A stretch of 48,329 nt of DNA from Thermodesulfobacteriota bacterium (GTDB lineage: Bacteria > Desulfobacterota_D > UBA1144 > Nemesobacterales > UBA2774): assembly GCA_021604765.1 (NCBI GenBank), contig BQJP01000019.1, positions 1-48,329 on the forward strand. Reading direction: 5' to 3'. The notes under the pieces were generated by a model that made no database searches, was not told the origin of the DNA, and saw nothing but the letters and a program-made list of their open reading frames with translations. How positions within the stretch are numbered: the stretch's first letter is position 1; every line of letters starts with the position of its first letter. A program made the translations under genes and the position numbers. This document shows positions 29,414-40,110 of the stretch, one piece after another.

Positions 29414-31234
29414 CTAATATACAGTTCTTATAAATTCTGTACCGCCAACTGCAAAGTCCTCAAAAAAATCACCGTTTACATCTCCAAGTCCTTGAACCAA
29501 TGATCCGAAATTAGGTTCCCCGCCCTCTCCAACCAGCTCTGTGATTGCATCTGAAGCTGGTACGGTAGCAGGGAAGTTATCCTGTCCAAAGAAAACATAG
29601 ACACTTCCAGTAGCTGTTCCCGGAGCACCTATTGCAAAACCAGCATTGATAGTTTCCAGTATAAGAACAATTGCAGTATCTCTTCGTCTCTTATCTTGTT
29701 CAAAGTTTAGCTCCGGCATAACAGTAACAGACTCACCAAACCTGTCTCCCGGACTTATTCCCGTAAATTCGGTCTCCACAGGAGGAAGAGTCCCATCACT
29801 AAATGCATCATCTATACTATCCCCTGAATATAAAAATACTGAACCTGTGGACATGTTGGAATCAGGGGCACCAACTATGACATCATCCCTTTCCTCACCA
29901 TCTTCATCTATATCCCCAGCTCCAGATAGGCTAATCCCAAAACTATCATCCGCACTGCCTTCAAGAATAGCTACATTTTCGGTATCAGCAGGTAAATCAT
30001 CTATACTATCAATACTGTCTTTACCTTTTATTATGTACGCTTTTCCTATGCCGGGCGCGCCAACACCCATCTCATTGAAACTGTTTCTTCTAATTCTTCC
30101 AACGTTCTCAATATCAAAACCAAACAAGTCGCCAGGCCCCTCACCTGTAAAATTAGCGGCTGCATCACTAGCAGGAACTTCCTGGTTCTGTTTAAGACCC
30201 CTACCTCTAAAAATATATGACCTTCCGGTATCAGAGCCAAAGAATGGTGCCCCGACCATAAACAACCCGGCCCCGTTTGTCACATCATCTCCGTCAGCTA
30301 CTGAAAAACCAAAGCTATCTCCAACATTTTCTCCAACGACTTCAATTCGGTCCACACTGCTATCTGCTAGATCAATAACGCTAGGAAACTCTCTATTACC
30401 AAAAATCATATATACTTTTCCTCTATCGTTATCAAAACCGGGCGCTCCAATTACAAGCTCTTCTGTCCGGGGGTCATCTTCAAAGTCCGGTATACCTGCC
30501 AGCGAAGCACCGAACATCTCTTCAGGATTTCCTATAACCGTCACATCTGCGTTAGCAACATCAATAACAGTAGCGCCGTTATTAGTTAAATCATTCTGAC
30601 CAAAAAAGATATATACTTTTCCAAGGCATGGATCACCAATAGCATAGTCATTAATAAACGTTCCATCGTCTTCCCGGTCTCCATTAAAATTCCCTGATCC
30701 TGCAGAATCTCCAAGGCAGCTGCCGGGCTCATCACTAACATATTTCACGGATTGAAGAGGAGTAGTTAACTCAGCAACATTTGAAGGTTGTGAAGAATTA
30801 CCAACTTCATCATTGGTTCGGATGGCATAAAAGAACGACATTTCCCCAGTTATATCTAATCGGTATGTGAGAAAGGACTGAGGTGTTCCTGCAACATCAG
30901 GTCTTTGAAAATCAGGGATCTGAGCGGCATCATCGTAATTATTTCTAACCGCTTCTTCAATTTCAAAAAACGGCACTCCATCTAAATTAGGCACTCCCAA
31001 TATTTCTGCTACTTCTTCATTATCATAAAATCTAATGAAGTAAATCGTAGCTCTACCTTTATTTCCATCGTCTCCCGGAGCAGTCCAATTCAGCAATCTA
31101 CTAACTTCTTCTGAGGACAGATCAGTAGTTGTTGCAGGAGGAGTATCGTCCCCAACCGCACAAGAAATAATAAACAAGATAGCAAAGAGATAACTGATTC
31201 TTAGAAGTTTTATTGCATTTAAAGCAATTGTCAT
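29414..31234 (-). CDS. FG-GAP repeat (integrin-alpha-like) lipoprotein
   Basis: 606 residues. A signal peptide with lipobox FIISC (cleavage near residue 25) is followed by a fibronectin-III-like domain (about 35-155) with NWTAPGDDGNKGRA and FFYAIRTNDEVGNSS. Then come about six FG-GAP repeats of the pattern GDxFG...(A/V)GAPxx...GxVYxxFG, e.g. MFGASLAGIPDF, VGDSFGFSVADGDD, DLFGFDIENVG, DSFGISLSGAGDIDEDG and a final LVQGLGDVNGDFFEDFA. Such repeats form a seven-bladed calcium-binding propeller. The SD is AAGGAAAA. It is probably surface-exposed; the ligand is unknown. Confidence 0.88.
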   Translation of the reverse strand: MTIALNAIKLLRISYLFAILFIISCAVGDDTPPATTTDLSSEEVSRLLNWTAPGDDGNKGRATIYFIRFYDNEEVAEILGVPNLDGVPFFEIEEAVRNNYDDAAQIPDFQRPDVAGTPQSFLTYRLDITGEMSFFYAIRTNDEVGNSSQPSNVAELTTPLQSVKYVSDEPGSCLGDSAGSGNFNGDREDDGTFINDYAIGDPCLGKVYIFFGQNDLTNNGATVIDVANADVTVIGNPEEMFGASLAGIPDFEDDPRTEELVIGAPGFDNDRGKVYMIFGNREFPSVIDLADSSVDRIEVVGENVGDSFGFSVADGDDVTNGAGLFMVGAPFFGSDTGRSYIFRGRGLKQNQEVPASDAAANFTGEGPGDLFGFDIENVGRIRRNSFNEMGVGAPGIGKAYIIKGKDSIDSIDDLPADTENVAILEGSADDSFGISLSGAGDIDEDGEERDDVIVGAPDSNMSTGSVFLYSGDSIDDAFSDGTLPPVETEFTGISPGDRFGESVTVMPELNFEQDKRRRDTAIVLILETINAGFAIGAPGTATGSVYVFFGQDNFPATVPASDAITELVGEGGEPNFGSLVQGLGDVNGDFFEDFAVGGTEFIRTVY

Positions 31235-34239: not shown

Positions 34240-34863
34240 ATGGAACCATTAGAAAGAGTACATGGAATCGTTGCTCCACTCGACAGAATGAACGTGGACA
34301 CAGACCAGATAATTCCAAAACAGTTTTTAAAAAGAGTTGAAAGAACTGGGTTTGGAGAATTTTTATTTTTTGACTGGCGCTATCACGAAGATGGAACGCC
34401 GAATCCTGATTTTGAACTTAACCATGAGCACCACCAAGATGCTAAAATTTTATTGACTAGTCATAATTTTGGGAGCGGAAGCTCTAGAGAACACGCCCCG
34501 TGGGCTTTAAGGGAGTTTGGTTTTCAAGTTATTATTGCCCCCTCCTTTGCTGACATTTTTTATAACAACTGTTTTAAAAATGCCATACTACCGATAGTCC
34601 TACCTGAAAATAAAGTGAAGGAATTATTCGATATCGTTAATTCAAAGAAAGGCCATGAGATGACAGTGGATCTGAAATCTCAAACTATTTCTGATGATGA
34701 GGGCTGGTCTATCAATTTTGATATCGACCCATTCAAAAAGAAAAGCCTACTGGAAGGACTTGATGATATTGGACACTCGCTTGAGCATGAAGATAAAATC
34801 AGAATTTATGAGAATAAACACTCTGGTGAAAGAAAATGGGTTATTCCTGATGACTCAGAGTAA
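34240..34863 (+). CDS. leuD: 3-isopropylmalate dehydratase, small subunit
   Basis: 207 residues. Landmarks are GIVAPLDRMNVDTDQIIPKQFLKR (span at about 9-32), FFDWRYHEDGTPN, LTSHNFGSGSSREHAPWAL (the swivel-domain signature) and FADIFYNNCFKNAILPI. It forms the dehydratase with LeuC. It begins 12 bases after leuC with GAGG upstream, so the two are cotranscribed. The length is normal for the proteobacterial type. Confidence 0.96.
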   Translation: MEPLERVHGIVAPLDRMNVDTDQIIPKQFLKRVERTGFGEFLFFDWRYHEDGTPNPDFELNHEHHQDAKILLTSHNFGSGSSREHAPWALREFGFQVIIAPSFADIFYNNCFKNAILPIVLPENKVKELFDIVNSKKGHEMTVDLKSQTISDDEGWSINFDIDPFKKKSLLEGLDDIGHSLEHEDKIRIYENKHSGERKWVIPDDSE

Positions 34864-34879
34864 CAAGATGAGTGAGTAA

Positions 34880-35089
34880 CTAACGTATTTTGGATAAAAA
34901 ATAAAACACTAAGCTTAGAATTATACTAATCACTATCGAACTTCTGATAGGAAAGTAAAATGAAACATTTTCTCGCTTCAAGTAAATATCCCCAGGTAGT
35001 TCCCCCAAGAATGGAATCTTTGGATAAAACTGAATCAGTATTCCAACAACTATAAGAAATATGCCTATATAAATTATTACTTTCTCCAA
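34880..35089 (-). CDS. DUF2905 small membrane protein
   Basis: 69 residues: transmembrane helix 1 (about 4-22, VIIYIGIFLIVVGILI), the family hallmark LGELPGDIYLKRENVSFYFP, then transmembrane helix 2 (about 48-66). This matches DUF2905, small two-helix inner-membrane proteins of unknown role. It converges with leuD and diverges from rpoN. Confidence 0.8.
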   Translation of the reverse strand: MEKVIIYIGIFLIVVGILIQFYPKIPFLGELPGDIYLKRENVSFYFPIRSSIVISIILSLVFYFLSKIR

Positions 35090-35218
35090 TTTGTATTACT
35101 CCATTTAGAATATTCAACCTGCCTATCTATTCATAAACTATATAGAATTTCTATAAAATCTCAATCATTTAGGCTCATTACACGCATAAATATTCAAAGT
35201 ATGCTATACTATTTCAAG

Positions 35219-35257
35219 TGGCACGAATCTTGTATACGATTTGTGATATATTATAAT
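35219..35257 (+). promoter_or_regulatory. Candidate sigma-54 promoter overlapping a sigma-70-like promoter, upstream of rpoN
   Basis: TGGCACG (35219-35225), four bases, then TTGTA (35230-35234) matches the sigma-54 -24/-12 consensus (TGGCACG-N4-TTGCA) except T for C at the -12 GC. The spacing is exact. A sigma-70-like TTGTAT (35230-35235), 16 bases, TATAAT (35252-35257) overlaps it. The predicted sigma-54 start would be near 35246, about 60 bases before the rpoN ATG. The match is seen; use is inferred. Confidence 0.55.
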
Positions 35258-35304
35258 CTTATTGGGGTAAATGAAACTCAAATTTAGTCGAATAAAAAAG
35301 TGCT

Positions 35305-36822
35305 ATGAGTACAAATTTAAGTCAAACAACTTCTCAAAGACAAGTACTACAGCAACGTCTGGTATTAACCCAGGAACTGCAGCTGTTCTTAAAGTTAATT
35401 CAGATGAACACACTCGAATTAAAAGATTATTTGGAAGAGCAGTTAATCGAAAATCCAACTTTAGAAGAGTCTGAAGATGCCAAAGAGAAAACAGAGGAGA
35501 GTTCTAACGAAGAATTTGATTTGAGTAATATAGGTGACGACCGCATTTTTGGAAACCAAGATAACGATGTACCACATTACTCATCAAGGGAATTTTTTGA
35601 TGATAGCGAAGAAGAATCCCCTTGGGAAAACAGAATCAGTTCCGATGACTCTCTAATTGATCATCTAAGATGGCAACTCCATATATCTGACTTCTCTCAC
35701 GAGGAAAAAGAGATCGCCTCAACAATTATAGGAAACACAAATGAAGATGGATACCTTGAAACAGATATTGAAGAAGTTGCGCATACTTATCTGAACCAGA
35801 TACAGGGTATGGAGAAATCAAATAATCAAGATCAAGATGACCATATAGATAATATTGAAGCCATTATCAATAAAGCCAAAGAAGTTTTAAATAAGATCCA
35901 AACATCTTTTGATCCTACAGGGGTTTGTTCAAGAAACTTAAAAGAATGTTTAAAACTCCAGGCGCTAGATCTAGGCTACCCTGAAGACAGTCTTGTAGTT
36001 GAAATGATTGAGAAACATTTTGAAGATATTAATGAGAATGATCTGAGTAATATTTTAGATGCAATTCACGATTCAACCCAAGAAATCCAAGAAGCTATGG
36101 CTGTAATCTCATCTCTTGAACCTAGACCTGGAAGACCATACTTTGTTAAAGATTCGGAAAAATACATAGTCCCTGATTTCTATGTTTATAATATGGGAGA
36201 CGAACTTCAAATCCAGCTAAACCGTGATTTCCCGAGAGTCAGAATAAGCAATTACTACAAAAACCTAATAAAAAAAGAAAAGACTCTGCCACCGGAAGCA
36301 AAACAATTTATTAAAGAGAAACTTGAAGCGGCGCAAAGGATTATGAAATGCCTTGATGAAAGGGAAGAAACAGTAAAGAAAATTATTTCTAAGATTGTGG
36401 AAGTTCAGAGTGAATTTTTTGCCCATGGAAAGGAATATATAAAACCTCTTATATTAAAAGACGTAGCACAGTCTGTTGGGGTTCATGAATCTACAGTAAG
36501 CAGAATTACGAGCAGAAGATATATCCAAACACCTCAAGGCACGATAGAGCTCAAATCACTATTTTCCAGACGAATTGAGTCATCTCAGGGAAAAGATATT
36601 TCTTTTGAAAAAGTAAAGTCGATTATGAAAAATATTATATCAAGTGAAATGCCAGAAAGCCCTTATTCAGACGAGGATATTTCTAAAATATTTGAAAGAA
36701 GAAATATCACTGTTGCCAGGAGAACAGTTGCAAAATACAGGAAAATACTTAAAATACCTTCTTCTTCAGTAAGATCACGAAAATACAAGGAAAACAAAAA
36801 TGAAAGTAACAGTAACAACTAG
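35305..36822 (+). CDS. rpoN: RNA polymerase sigma-54 factor RpoN
   Basis: 505 residues. Region I is Gln/Leu-rich (QRQVLQQRLVLTQELQLFLK) and ends with LIENPTLEE. An acidic region II follows (about 55-105). The core-binding region III is at about 110-340, and a helix-turn-helix lies near 385-410 (DVAQSVGVHESTVSRITS). The RpoN box is ARRTVAKYRK at 471-480. RpoN reads -24/-12 promoters with AAA+ activators. The SD is weak. It opens the rpoN-hpf-ptsN-hprK-rapZ-EIIA cluster and overlaps hpf by 23 bases. Confidence 0.97.
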   Translation: MSTNLSQTTSQRQVLQQRLVLTQELQLFLKLIQMNTLELKDYLEEQLIENPTLEESEDAKEKTEESSNEEFDLSNIGDDRIFGNQDNDVPHYSSREFFDDSEEESPWENRISSDDSLIDHLRWQLHISDFSHEEKEIASTIIGNTNEDGYLETDIEEVAHTYLNQIQGMEKSNNQDQDDHIDNIEAIINKAKEVLNKIQTSFDPTGVCSRNLKECLKLQALDLGYPEDSLVVEMIEKHFEDINENDLSNILDAIHDSTQEIQEAMAVISSLEPRPGRPYFVKDSEKYIVPDFYVYNMGDELQIQLNRDFPRVRISNYYKNLIKKEKTLPPEAKQFIKEKLEAAQRIMKCLDEREETVKKIISKIVEVQSEFFAHGKEYIKPLILKDVAQSVGVHESTVSRITSRRYIQTPQGTIELKSLFSRRIESSQGKDISFEKVKSIMKNIISSEMPESPYSDEDISKIFERRNITVARRTVAKYRKILKIPSSSVRSRKYKENKNESNSNN

Positions 36823-37351
36823 ACATCTTAAGAACTCAAAAGACACAGCAAAAATAAAGGCCTATGCTCTAAAAAAATCTAACAGAATTGAAAGGTATGT
36901 GAAATCTGAAAAAGACCCTTCCGAATTAAGATTTATCTTATCTTCTGAGAAATTTAGAGATACGGCAGAAATCTCTATTAGCTGTGGGAATATTAAAGCT
37001 ACAAGCTCAGTTGAAACCAACGACATTTATGCAGCTATAGACGATGCTGTCGACACAATAATTAAACAACTAAAAAAACAAACGGAAAAGAAAACCAAAG
37101 AAAAAAGAAGAACCGGGAATAAATCTAAGAATGAAATTGCAAAATCAAGCCCTACCAATAATTTAGATTTTGATTATTTAGAGGATATAAGAGTACAGAA
37201 ATTGCCTCCTAAACCTATGTCCTTAGAAGAAGCTTCTCTTCAACTTCAGGTATCTGATGCTAATTTTGTAGCCTTTAGGAATAGTGAGAGCGGTTCAATG
37301 AATGTGATATATATTAGCCGCAGAGGCCAGAAAATCTTAATAGAACCATAG
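36800..37351 (+). CDS. hpf: Ribosome hibernation promoting factor HPF (long form)
   Basis: 183 residues. The N-terminal HPF/YfiA domain (1-100) reads MKVTVTTRHLKNSKDTAKIK, with a beta-alpha-beta layout and the helix IYAAIDDAVDTIIKQLKKQ. After a Lys-rich linker (about 100-115) comes the C-terminal dimerisation domain (about 125-183) with KPMSLEEASLQLQVSDANFVAF as its span. Long HPF dimerises 70S ribosomes into 100S. The SD is AAGGA within the rpoN 3' end, so translation is coupled. Confidence 0.93.
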   Translation: MKVTVTTRHLKNSKDTAKIKAYALKKSNRIERYVKSEKDPSELRFILSSEKFRDTAEISISCGNIKATSSVETNDIYAAIDDAVDTIIKQLKKQTEKKTKEKRRTGNKSKNEIAKSSPTNNLDFDYLEDIRVQKLPPKPMSLEEASLQLQVSDANFVAFRNSESGSMNVIYISRRGQKILIEP

Positions 37352-37365
37352 TTTGTAAATGTAAT

Positions 37366-37827
37366 ATGAAAATAGCAGACTTCTTGGCAGCAAACACTAT
37401 AATCTCTAACCTGAATTCAAAAACCAAGCAAGACGTTATCAGAGAACTTGCAGGTACCATTACATCTGCAAATTCAAATATTAACAATGAGAAATTGGTA
37501 GAAGTCTTATTGGAACGCGAGAAACTATGTAGCACCGCAATAGACTCAGGCGTTGCAGTGCCTCATGCAAAGATAAGCGGTATTACAGAAACAATTTTAG
37601 GCTTTGGTAGGAGTCTGGAGGGAATAGTGTTTGAATCGTTAGACAATAAACCTACAAATTTTTTTATAACCCTTATTACTCCTGAAGATACTACCGGTAC
37701 TCAGATTCAATTATTGGCACAGATTTCTAAAGTATTTAGAAACCAGGAATTGAGATCCAGATTGATGAAATGTGAATCAGAGGAAGAGATACTACAAACA
37801 ATCAAATTAGAAGATGAAAAGTACTGA
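37366..37827 (+). CDS. ptsN: PTS IIA-Ntr regulatory protein (PtsN)
   Basis: 153 residues of the mannitol/fructose-type EIIA fold. The phosphorylatable His is H67 in SGVAVPHAKI. Other landmarks are LLEREKLCSTAIDSG and FITLITPEDTTGTQIQLLA. It is regulatory rather than sugar-specific and usually signals nitrogen or potassium status. It starts 14 bases after hpf and lies next to rpoN, as in many proteobacteria. Confidence 0.93.
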   Translation: MKIADFLAANTIISNLNSKTKQDVIRELAGTITSANSNINNEKLVEVLLEREKLCSTAIDSGVAVPHAKISGITETILGFGRSLEGIVFESLDNKPTNFFITLITPEDTTGTQIQLLAQISKVFRNQELRSRLMKCESEEEILQTIKLEDEKY

Positions 37828-37869: not shown

Positions 37870-38412
37870 ATGACTACGGGTAACAAAACCTTGCAGAATA
37901 ATAATCTCTTTACAACTATTCACGGAATTTTGCTGGAGGTAGAAGCTTTAGGAATTCTAATTATCGGCAAAAGCGGAATTGGAAAGAGTGACACAGCGCT
38001 TGAATTAATAACAAGGGGCTCTAAACTCATCACCGATGATGTAGTAGAAATTACAGTCGGAAAATCAGGTGAGCTGATAGGTAGTGGCCCGGACAGAACA
38101 AAATACTTAATGGAAATAAGAGGAGTTGGAATCATCAACGTAATGGACTTATACGGAGATAAATATATATTAAAGAATCGAGATATAGATATGGTTATTG
38201 AACTTACAAGATGGGATTCTAATATTGAGTATGATAGACTGGGTGTAGAGGAGAACTACTACAACATAATGGGGGTAGAATTGCCTTATCTCTTAGTATC
38301 CATAAGACCTGGTACAAACACCGCAACCATAATAGAGCTTGCTGTACGTAATCAGATACTTAAATCAAATAACAAAAGAACCAATCAAGAACAACTAAAA
38401 AATGCAGGATAA
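37870..38412 (+). CDS. hprK: HPr kinase/phosphorylase, short catalytic-domain form
   Basis: 180 residues, against about 310 for full-length HprK: only the C-terminal catalytic domain is present. H18 lies in TIHGILLEV, the P-loop is GKSGIGKS at 33-40, the acidic LITDDVVEI follows, and the HprK signature is MEIRGVGIINVMDLYG. It phosphorylates HPr on a serine. The N-terminal DRTGG-type domain is absent and the upstream 42-base gap leaves no room for it. Short forms are known from alphaproteobacteria and others. HPr itself is not encoded in the window. Confidence 0.9.
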   Translation: MTTGNKTLQNNNLFTTIHGILLEVEALGILIIGKSGIGKSDTALELITRGSKLITDDVVEITVGKSGELIGSGPDRTKYLMEIRGVGIINVMDLYGDKYILKNRDIDMVIELTRWDSNIEYDRLGVEENYYNIMGVELPYLLVSIRPGTNTATIIELAVRNQILKSNNKRTNQEQLKNAG

Positions 38413-38415
38413 AAA

Positions 38416-39267
38416 ATGACTAACTTAGTTATTATTAGTGGGTTATCCGGTTCAGGAAAAAGTACAGCTGTAAATGTGCTTGAAGATATGGATTATTACT
38501 GTGTAGATAATTTACCCCCTACTCTGCTGCCAACCTTTATTGAGCTTTGTGAGAATTCAGATAAAGAAATAAGTAAAGTTGCACTAGTAATTGATATACG
38601 TGAAAGAGTTTCCTTTGACAGAGCCCCAGAAGTAATTAGAGAATTTATCAAAAAAGGTTATCCAGTAGATATGATATTCTTAGAATCATCCGACGCAACA
38701 CTATTAAAGAGATATAAAGAAACCCGAAGAAAACACCCGCTCTCAGATGATGGAAATATTGCGGATGGCATATCTAAAGAAAGAAAAATACTGGAACAGC
38801 TAAAAGAACTCTCTAATTACACAATAGACACCTCAGAGCTAAACGTTCATCAATTAAGTGATATTATCAAAAATAAATTCAACAAACCGAATACTCAGAA
38901 TATCTTACTAAATATTATTTCATTCGGATTTAAACATGGTATACCTAATGATGCAGATATGATCTTTGATGTTAGGTTCTTGCCTAATCCGCATTTTGTC
39001 GAAGATTTGAGAGATCTTAACGGCACAGACAAAGAAGTCATAGACTTCATAATGAATAAAGAAGAATCCAGACAATTTATAGAGAAAATCACTGATTTTC
39101 TGGAATATCTAGTGCCCAATTATGAAAAGGAAGGAAAATCCTATCTGACAATAGCCATAGGATGTACAGGCGGAAAACATCGATCAGTAGCAATAACAGA
39201 CATGGTAGCTAGGCATTTTAAAGATCTTTCGCCTTTAACCAGACATAGGGACGTATCTAAAAACTAA
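38416..39267 (+). CDS. rapZ: RapZ-type nucleotide-binding protein (YvcJ/YhbJ)
   Basis: 283 residues. The P-loop is GLSGSGKST at 9-17, followed by LEDMDYYCVDNLPPTLLP, which marks the family. LESSDATLLKRYKETRRKHPL and the C-terminal IGCTGGKHRSVAI complete it. In E. coli RapZ binds small RNAs GlmY/GlmZ; in other bacteria YvcJ hydrolyses GTP. Next to hprK and the EIIA genes it belongs to the PTS-Ntr regulatory cluster. It starts three bases after the hprK stop, with AGGA upstream. Confidence 0.94.
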   Translation: MTNLVIISGLSGSGKSTAVNVLEDMDYYCVDNLPPTLLPTFIELCENSDKEISKVALVIDIRERVSFDRAPEVIREFIKKGYPVDMIFLESSDATLLKRYKETRRKHPLSDDGNIADGISKERKILEQLKELSNYTIDTSELNVHQLSDIIKNKFNKPNTQNILLNIISFGFKHGIPNDADMIFDVRFLPNPHFVEDLRDLNGTDKEVIDFIMNKEESRQFIEKITDFLEYLVPNYEKEGKSYLTIAIGCTGGKHRSVAITDMVARHFKDLSPLTRHRDVSKN

Positions 39268-39277
39268 GGAGATATAA

Positions 39278-39688
39278 ATGGTTGGCATAGTTTTGGTAAC
39301 ACACGGAGAATTAGCCAAAGAACTTATAGCTGCCGTAAATTTTGTACTTTCCTCAGAGCCTTCCGTAAAAATTTGCGGTGTAAGCCTTGACCCCGACAGA
39401 GAGTTTGAGTCATTCAAGCAGGATATAAAGAACGCAATTAAAAAAGTTAAATCTAAAGACGGCATTTTGCTTGTTACTGATATGTTTGGAGGCACGCCGT
39501 CCAATATCAGCCTCACATTCCTTGAAGAAAATAAAGTTGAGGTAATATCAGGGGTTAATCTTCCAATGCTACTAAAACTCGCTACCCTATCTAATAAAGT
39601 TACTTTAGATGAAGCAGTCAAAATAGCAGAGTCTGCCGGAAGGGAAAATATTATTGTAGCTAGTAAGCTTCTTCAAAATAGGGATTGA
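39278..39688 (+). CDS. PTS mannose-family EIIA component
   Basis: 136 residues of the mannose-type EIIA fold: MVGIVLVTHGELAKEL with phosphorylatable H9, DGILLVTDMFGGTPSNIS, and VEVISGVNLPMLLKLA. In many deltaproteobacteria-like genomes this gene follows rapZ and precedes EIIB, EIIC, EIID, HPr and enzyme I; none of these follows here. The SD is AAGGAGA. The stop is overlapped by a 16-bp palindrome. It is likely regulatory. Confidence 0.92.
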   Translation: MVGIVLVTHGELAKELIAAVNFVLSSEPSVKICGVSLDPDREFESFKQDIKNAIKKVKSKDGILLVTDMFGGTPSNISLTFLEENKVEVISGVNLPMLLKLATLSNKVTLDEAVKIAESAGRENIIVASKLLQNRD

Positions 39689-39786: not shown

Positions 39787-40110
39787 ATGAAAGAAGAAAC
39801 TATAGATAGAATTATTGATGCTTGGAAAAAATATCTCTTCCAAGGTGAAATGGAGGATTATCAACTTGAGATTGATGATAATGTACCAATCGAGTTTGCG
39901 GCAATAGCTCTGCACTTAGACTCAAGAACTATAAGAGCTTCAGGAAAATCAGAGGACTACTATGAAGGATTCAGGGAAGCTGCAATTGAAGTACTGAATC
40001 TGATCCAAGTAGAAATTGCTCAAGATGATCAGTTGAAAGTAGTAACTCTATATCATAGAGAGACTGACGATAATAAACAGGAAGAATTAGCTAAAAATAT
40101 TTGGGGTTAA
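39787..40110 (+). CDS. Hypothetical protein, 107 residues
   Basis: No family is recognised. The protein is acidic and soluble, with no signal peptide or membrane segment. It alternates helix and strand: IDRIIDAWKKYLFQGEM (helix), YQLEIDDNVPIEFAAIALHL (strands), YYEGFREAAIEVLNLIQ (helix), then LKVVTLYHRE (strand) and an acidic tail ending NIWG. This suggests a small alpha/beta fold. It follows the EIIA gene after 98 bases with its own candidate promoter and precedes a HAD phosphatase gene by 60 bases. Codon use resembles that of its neighbours, so it is probably a real gene. Confidence 0.7.
   Translation: MKEETIDRIIDAWKKYLFQGEMEDYQLEIDDNVPIEFAAIALHLDSRTIRASGKSEDYYEGFREAAIEVLNLIQVEIAQDDQLKVVTLYHRETDDNKQEELAKNIWG

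Follow-up and report, generated by a model that had tools for sequence, protein, structure and literature searches.

The window analysed here is a 48,329-nucleotide stretch of Thermodesulfobacteriota DNA. It carries rpoN, which encodes sigma-54, together with the genes of its probable operon and a divergent gene, from which rpoN is separated by a control region of ~215 bases. The start codon of rpoN is the ATG at 35305. The features of the locus are as follows.

34880-35089, minus strand: DUF2905 gene, TTG start, divergent to rpoN (PF11146, 4.4e-22, match on 34880-35092)
35137-35164, minus strand: sigma-70-like promoter of the DUF2905 gene, TTGAGA-16-TATAGT (10/12 consensus matches only)
35200-35210, plus strand: P1, a sigma-70-type extended -10 (TATGCTATACT; TGCTATACT at 35202-35210) with a conserved -10-like hexamer
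35219-35234, plus strand: sigma-54-like -24/-12 element TGGCACG-AATC-TTGTA (TGGCACGAATCTTGTA), exact spacing, in 16/16 family genomes
35230-35257, plus strand: P2, TTGTAT-16-TATAAT (TATAAT at 35252-35257), with a weak -35 whose TTG is also that of the sigma-54 -12 motif
35305-36822, plus strand: rpoN (sigma-54), 505 aa, with AID, core-binding and DNA-binding domains (TIGR02395, 401 bits, cut-off 277)
36800-37351, plus strand: hpf, long-form ribosome hibernation factor, overlapping the end of rpoN
37366-37827, plus strand: PTS EIIA-2 (ptsN-like), probably in the same operon as rpoN
37870-38412, plus strand: short HPr kinase (hprK), C-terminal catalytic domain only, probably in the rpoN operon
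38416-39267, plus strand: rapZ, probably in the same operon as rpoN
39278-39688, plus strand: PTS EIIA-man family protein, probably the last gene of the rpoN operon

The RpoN protein retains Region I (PF00309). Gaps between successive genes from rpoN to the EIIA-man gene are at most 42 bases and the next ORF begins 98 bases beyond the latter; a 107-aa ORF after the operon (39787-40110, plus strand) has no NCBIfam match. The DUF2905 gene is too short to appear in the ORF listing, and its frame is apparently broken in genome G006. Its putative promoter is of a grade (10/12) found 12 times in the scanned 4 kb against 13.0 expected. Elsewhere in the window, 29414-31234 on the minus strand encodes a 606-aa secreted-looking protein without an NCBIfam match, whose repeats are FG-GAP-like by eye.

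The preliminary description of this DNA claimed a TGGCACG-N4-TTGTA sequence before rpoN whose -24/-12 spacing is exact and which departs from the consensus at a single key base, and this is indeed present at 35219-35234 on the plus strand. The -24 GG occupies 35220-35221; the sole key mismatch is at the -12 position, where T replaces C at 35233. Within the window this is the only match to TGGCACGN4TTGCW at no more than one mismatch. Matches at up to three mismatches are uninformative, since 48 occur against 39.4 expected. Mononucleotide shuffling of the 200 bases 5' of rpoN never reached the window's top sigma-54-like score in 500 trials; when each of the 16 family genomes was tested in this way, 0 to 5 of 500 shuffles did so. 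As judged from sequence, the resemblance to a sigma-54 site is not a product of chance.

The family set comprises 16 genomes in five genera, seven from the genus of the window (genus 1) and nine from four others. Every one has exactly one TGGCAY-N5-TTGW site in the 230 bases upstream of rpoN. The site reads TGGCAC[GA]AAT[CA]TTGTA in genus 1 (n=7), TGGCAT[AG]GAATTTGAT in genus 2 (n=4), TGGCATAGAATTTGAA in genus 3 (n=2), TGGCACGAATTTTGAT in genus 4 (n=1) and TGGCACAAAAATTGA[CA] in genus 5 (n=2). Conservation in relatives had been put forward as a check on the original proposal, and the two halves of the element answer differently. The -24 GG, in its TGGCA context, and the TGGCAY-N5-TTG spacing are invariant (16/16), whereas the GC element is never GC: its G is kept in 16/16 and its C in 0/16, with T in seven genomes and A in nine. 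The T at -12 of the window's element is, across the 16 genomes, a conserved property of the site and not noise.

Parsimony on a tree of the 16 RpoN proteins (that of G003 truncated to 132 aa) assigns no change to TGGCA, TTG or an A at +8. These are the nine columns, among 105 aligned, without any change on the tree, and all are inside the element; eight are sigma-54 consensus positions and the invariant A(+8) is not a consensus base. Leaving aside the eight TGGCA/TTG columns, the remaining 97 (A(+8), with 0, among them) average 4.5 changes; for comparison, the third positions in codons 1-30 of rpoN average 3.3. The -12 column changed once, so that this position too is maintained, though with a base other than the consensus C. 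Because the alignment was anchored on TGGCAY...TTG, the conservation of those columns is in part built in; A(+8) lies outside the anchoring pattern. In an unanchored MAFFT alignment TGGCA and A(+8) are again invariant, and TTG is parted by a gap in genera 2-5. The 16/16 counts are not independent, since the genomes are relatives. In two of the draft genomes, G003 (L058) and G014 (L066), rpoN was matched as two pieces, perhaps through assembly errors.

Outside the family, none of 34 rpoN upstreams carries the element and none scored above 9 of 13; on the same 13-point score 15 family upstreams score 11 and one scores 10. The 34 came from 39 non-family genomes with an rpoN match (G025, G043, G048, G050 and G051 were left out), and in the distant ones the rpoN start codon is placed approximately only. 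Among these genomes a sigma-54 recognition element, in variant form, is thus far a feature of rpoN's own control region in this family only.

The altered -12 base stands against the habit of the lineage. In the 16 genomes the consensus TGGCAYN5TTGCW occurs at 342 sites and its reversed control at 28; sigma-54 sites of the lineage thus normally have C at -12. The same base is found in 96% of bacterial sigma-54 promoters (PMC4551910). The T/A form TGGCAYN5TTGWH occurs 168 times (16 rpoN sites and 152 others) against 109 in the control, a small surplus. In the window's genome, TGGCACGN4TTGCW at up to two mismatches gives 301 matches versus 152 for the reversed control. Among the matches listed, four are exact and 28, the rpoN site among them, have one mismatch; loci were obtained for 30 of these 32. 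Nineteen of the 30 are outside long ORFs. An ORF begins no more than 400 bases downstream of 16 of these, and 18 of the 19 carry C at -12, from which only the rpoN site departs. Two pairs of consensus or near-consensus sites face apart at 200-235 bases (G000:C1:73451(-)/73654(+) and G000:C2:65489(-)/65722(+)), which suggests divergent sigma-54 promoters. On the usual view, the -12 element contributes to keeping sigma-54 silent, which is why an activator is required. An rpoN site that keeps -24 and TTG over five genera, and never the -12 C, is a natural experiment on the role of that C.

A sigma-70-like promoter overlapping the element had also been described. The TATAAT box in question (P2) is present, though only genus-deep: P2 occurs in all seven genomes of the window's genus (TATAAT in six, TATCAT in one; spacing 16-17). 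The other nine have no TATAAT at this place, and both genus-5 genomes have CATAAT or CATTAT. That the element resembles a sigma-54 site fortuitously, or is merely the -35 of P2, is extremely improbable. The constant pairing of TTGTAT with TATAAT or TATCAT in genus 1 is what such a reading would predict, but TGGCA is equally invariant in the nine genomes lacking TATAAT, and the shuffles rarely equal the observed scores. As sole explanation P2 fails outside the window's genus.

The family-wide partner of the element is P1, which was missed earlier. A -10-like hexamer (at least 4 of 6 matches, with A2 and T6) ends 8-11 bases 5' of TGG in 16/16 family genomes. Alternative four-base placements over 80 bases reached at most 15/16 where they overlap this one (5-11) and at most 8 elsewhere. 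TAGACA-like boxes were seen by eye 16-17 bases upstream of the hexamer in genera 2-5; in the window's genus no good P1 -35 was seen and the hexamer is often an extended -10. As a control, consensus intergenic sigma-54 sites have a hexamer at the P1 distance in 4/15 cases in the window's own genome (18 of 35 consensus sites lay in the loci covered and three within long ORFs were dropped) and in 2/24 cases in G007 (30 of 32 sites, six within long ORFs dropped). Transcription from P1 would start near 35217, ~2 bases before TGGCAC, and across the family ~1-4 bases before TGGCA. The sigma-54 motif would therefore lie inside the footprint of a sigma-70-like promoter in 16/16 genomes. The competition between holoenzymes that had been suggested is likely, because the element overlaps sigma-70-like promoters, and the predicted P1 start would fall on the sigma-54 element itself.

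Several other explanations of the conserved sequence were considered. A GntR-like or other palindromic operator (CACGAATC...GATTTGTG) was rejected, as the dyad has 7/8 Watson-Crick pairs in the window and at most four in the other 15 genomes in the same register; with register shifts of up to three bases two genus-2 genomes reach six and two others five, by different pairing. An intrinsic terminator at this dyad was likewise rejected (two terminator-like sites in 4 kb versus 2.2 expected). No known RNA leader was found: a comparison of 34800-35500 with Rfam gave nothing at E up to 1. The element does not appear to serve the DUF2905 gene: the LPGD motif of that protein was not found upstream of rpoN in 3/16 genomes (G001, G003, G005), and since the element is kept in all three this reading was dropped. 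By eye, a possible leader ORF begins in the window with the ATG at 35271; the aligned relatives, likewise inspected by eye, do not keep it. Possible leader hairpins occur in some genomes. In L050 and L051 (two genus-2 genomes), TAGAAT...ATTCTA just 3' of TGGCA can pair around TTGATGGGG in the rpoN leader, and the L053 leader has GGAA...TTCC at the same place.

The conserved sequence might nonetheless serve a different DNA-binding protein, or act as an RNA element where the P1 transcript begins, and look like a sigma-54 promoter by coincidence. It would sit at about the first 20 bases of the predicted transcript, a common place for an operator or leader, and the invariant A(+8) is no sigma-54 consensus base. 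We regard this as decidedly unlikely, given a match to sigma-54 at eight of nine invariant bases with the right spacing, the dyad that relatives do not keep in register and the lack of an Rfam match in the region searched.

If sigma-54 does bind, the element could be an ordinary promoter at which an AAA+ activator turns rpoN on under some condition. GG, TTG and the spacing are exact. Activators, for which the preliminary description had proposed a search, are also at hand: strong Sigma54_activat matches occur in 16/16 family genomes (best per genome E 5e-72 or lower), with ten strong and three weak in the window's own. The weak matches mean little, because the control matches all 14 named genomes, archaea included. 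The T/A sites other than rpoN are slightly in excess of control, and NtrC-dependent sites in E. coli conserve the -12 GC poorly (PMC8743547), which leaves room for an activated promoter. Against this, C never occurs at -12 of rpoN, and the upstream activator site that might have been expected was not seen: over ~125-160 aligned bases upstream of the element only the P1 region and the -10 of the divergent promoter are conserved, although a more distant or variable activator site may exist. What stands of the original proposal is a sigma-54-type element at rpoN, conserved in 16/16 genomes that all have strong activator matches, together with a likely competition of holoenzymes. A normal activator-dependent promoter is doubtful, since the GC element is never GC, and we would consider it unlikely.

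The same base admits a second, equally unlikely reading. A non-C base at -12 might loosen silencing and allow low, self-sustaining transcription of rpoN by sigma-54 without an AAA+ activator. All 16 genomes have T or A at -12, the tree requires a single change there, and sigma-54 sites elsewhere in these genomes normally read TTGC; the TTGTATA of the window's genus is AT-rich. E. coli promoters at which sigma-54 bypasses its activator lack a strict C at -12 (PMC4551910); this loss is what points to activator-independent transcription, and earlier work cited in the same paper increased bypass at glnAp2 through changes around -12. The E. coli scoring in vivo, however, used a sigma-54 without Region I, and concerned eight sites at low level (PMC4551910), whereas the RpoN of the window has Region I. 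The region to be melted is also unpromising in genera 2-4, where the five bases 3' of the element hold GGG or GGGG, a feature of 0/24 intergenic consensus sites in G007. The GGG(G) run would favour the repression proposed below, but base composition also holds points against that reading: in G007 one of the 24 sites exceeds the rpoN site in GC content (7 versus 6 of 10), and in the window's genus the ten bases after the element, with 2-4 GC versus 0-3 at consensus sites of the window's own genome, are only modestly less AT-rich. A fuller form, in which the -12 C is selected against and wild-type sigma-54 holoenzyme would transcribe its own gene while shutting P1, as a natural activator-free homeostat, is more unlikely still.

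Taking all modes of action together, the rpoN element is very probably a selected binding site for sigma-54 holoenzyme. We propose, tentatively and with a confidence a little short of even, that it serves autoregulation of rpoN, most likely by blocking the housekeeping promoter P1. From the observed site, its conservation, the altered -12 base, the fixed P1 geometry, the activators and the consensus sites elsewhere, we infer that sigma-54 binds the element, that P1 is used and, less surely, that the sign of the effect is negative. When sigma-54 is plentiful, its holoenzyme would dock through TGGCA and TTG and keep the sigma-70 holoenzyme off P1; in the window's genus it would also cover the -35 of P2. 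Given T or A at -12 and the lack of a conserved activator site in the aligned upstream bases, the docked enzyme would probably be switched on inefficiently, and so would act as a self-made repressor. Self-repression would then hold sigma-54, and with it the hpf-ptsN-hprK-rapZ-EIIA genes behind rpoN, at a fixed level. The element thereby suggests how the cell may set its levels of sigma-54, PTS and hibernation genes.

Work in E. coli bears on both sides of this proposal. Repression of overlapping sigma-70 promoters by sigma-54 holoenzyme has been demonstrated there (PMC4551910; PMC8743547), and bound but inactive sigma-54 holoenzyme has been described along with intergenic data consistent with sigma competition (PMC4591121). 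Intragenic sigma-54 sites do not lower expression (PMC4591121), so that a roadblock to elongation is unsupported and self-repression would need occlusion of the start. Against repression, the sigma-54 motifs linked to it in E. coli all have C at -12 (PMC4551910). The -12 GC aids the stability of the complex (PMC8743547), and T or A at this position may therefore weaken binding.

Negative autoregulation of rpoN operates in Klebsiella and Pseudomonas putida. It has also been reported for Rhizobium leguminosarum (PMC3538637). The preliminary description held that autoregulation is known only in some species; it is known, but self-control of rpoN is less exceptional than this implies, because rpoN is a predicted target of sigma-54 promoters, enriched in several bacterial classes, with Geobacter sulfurreducens and Dokdonia cited (PMC12316311). 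The extract of a Geobacter study (PMC2725144) does not describe rpoN autoregulation. The present locus resembles the autoregulated rpoN genes in having a sigma-54 recognition element directly 5' of rpoN, and differs in the replacement of the -12 C by T or A in 16/16 genomes and in the position of the site on a sigma-70-like start point.

Three further systems invite comparison: (i) the class I/II sites of E. coli (Schaefer et al. 2015, PMC4551910) and the 'repressive promoters' of PMC8743547 likewise have a sigma-54 motif overlapping a sigma-70 footprint, but C stands at -12 in every E. coli repression motif of PMC4551910 and in 0/16 of the rpoN sites, so the element is not filed under class I/II, although it may work alike; (ii) at glmY/glmZ of Salmonella (PMC3844500) sigma-70 and sigma-54 promoters overlap fully and the holoenzymes compete for one place, but both are used there, as promoters for a small RNA, whereas the rpoN site is known from sequence alone; (iii) the activator-bypass sites of E. 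coli (PMC4551910) share with rpoN (16/16) a -12 C that is not kept, but were detected using a sigma-54 that lacks Region I, and Region I is intact here. We found no description of a conserved non-C -12 site at rpoN in the open-access literature searched. An autoregulated rpoN is thus already known, and as far as our searches reach it is the family-wide version with a non-C -12 base, placed on a sigma-70-like start point, that is new.
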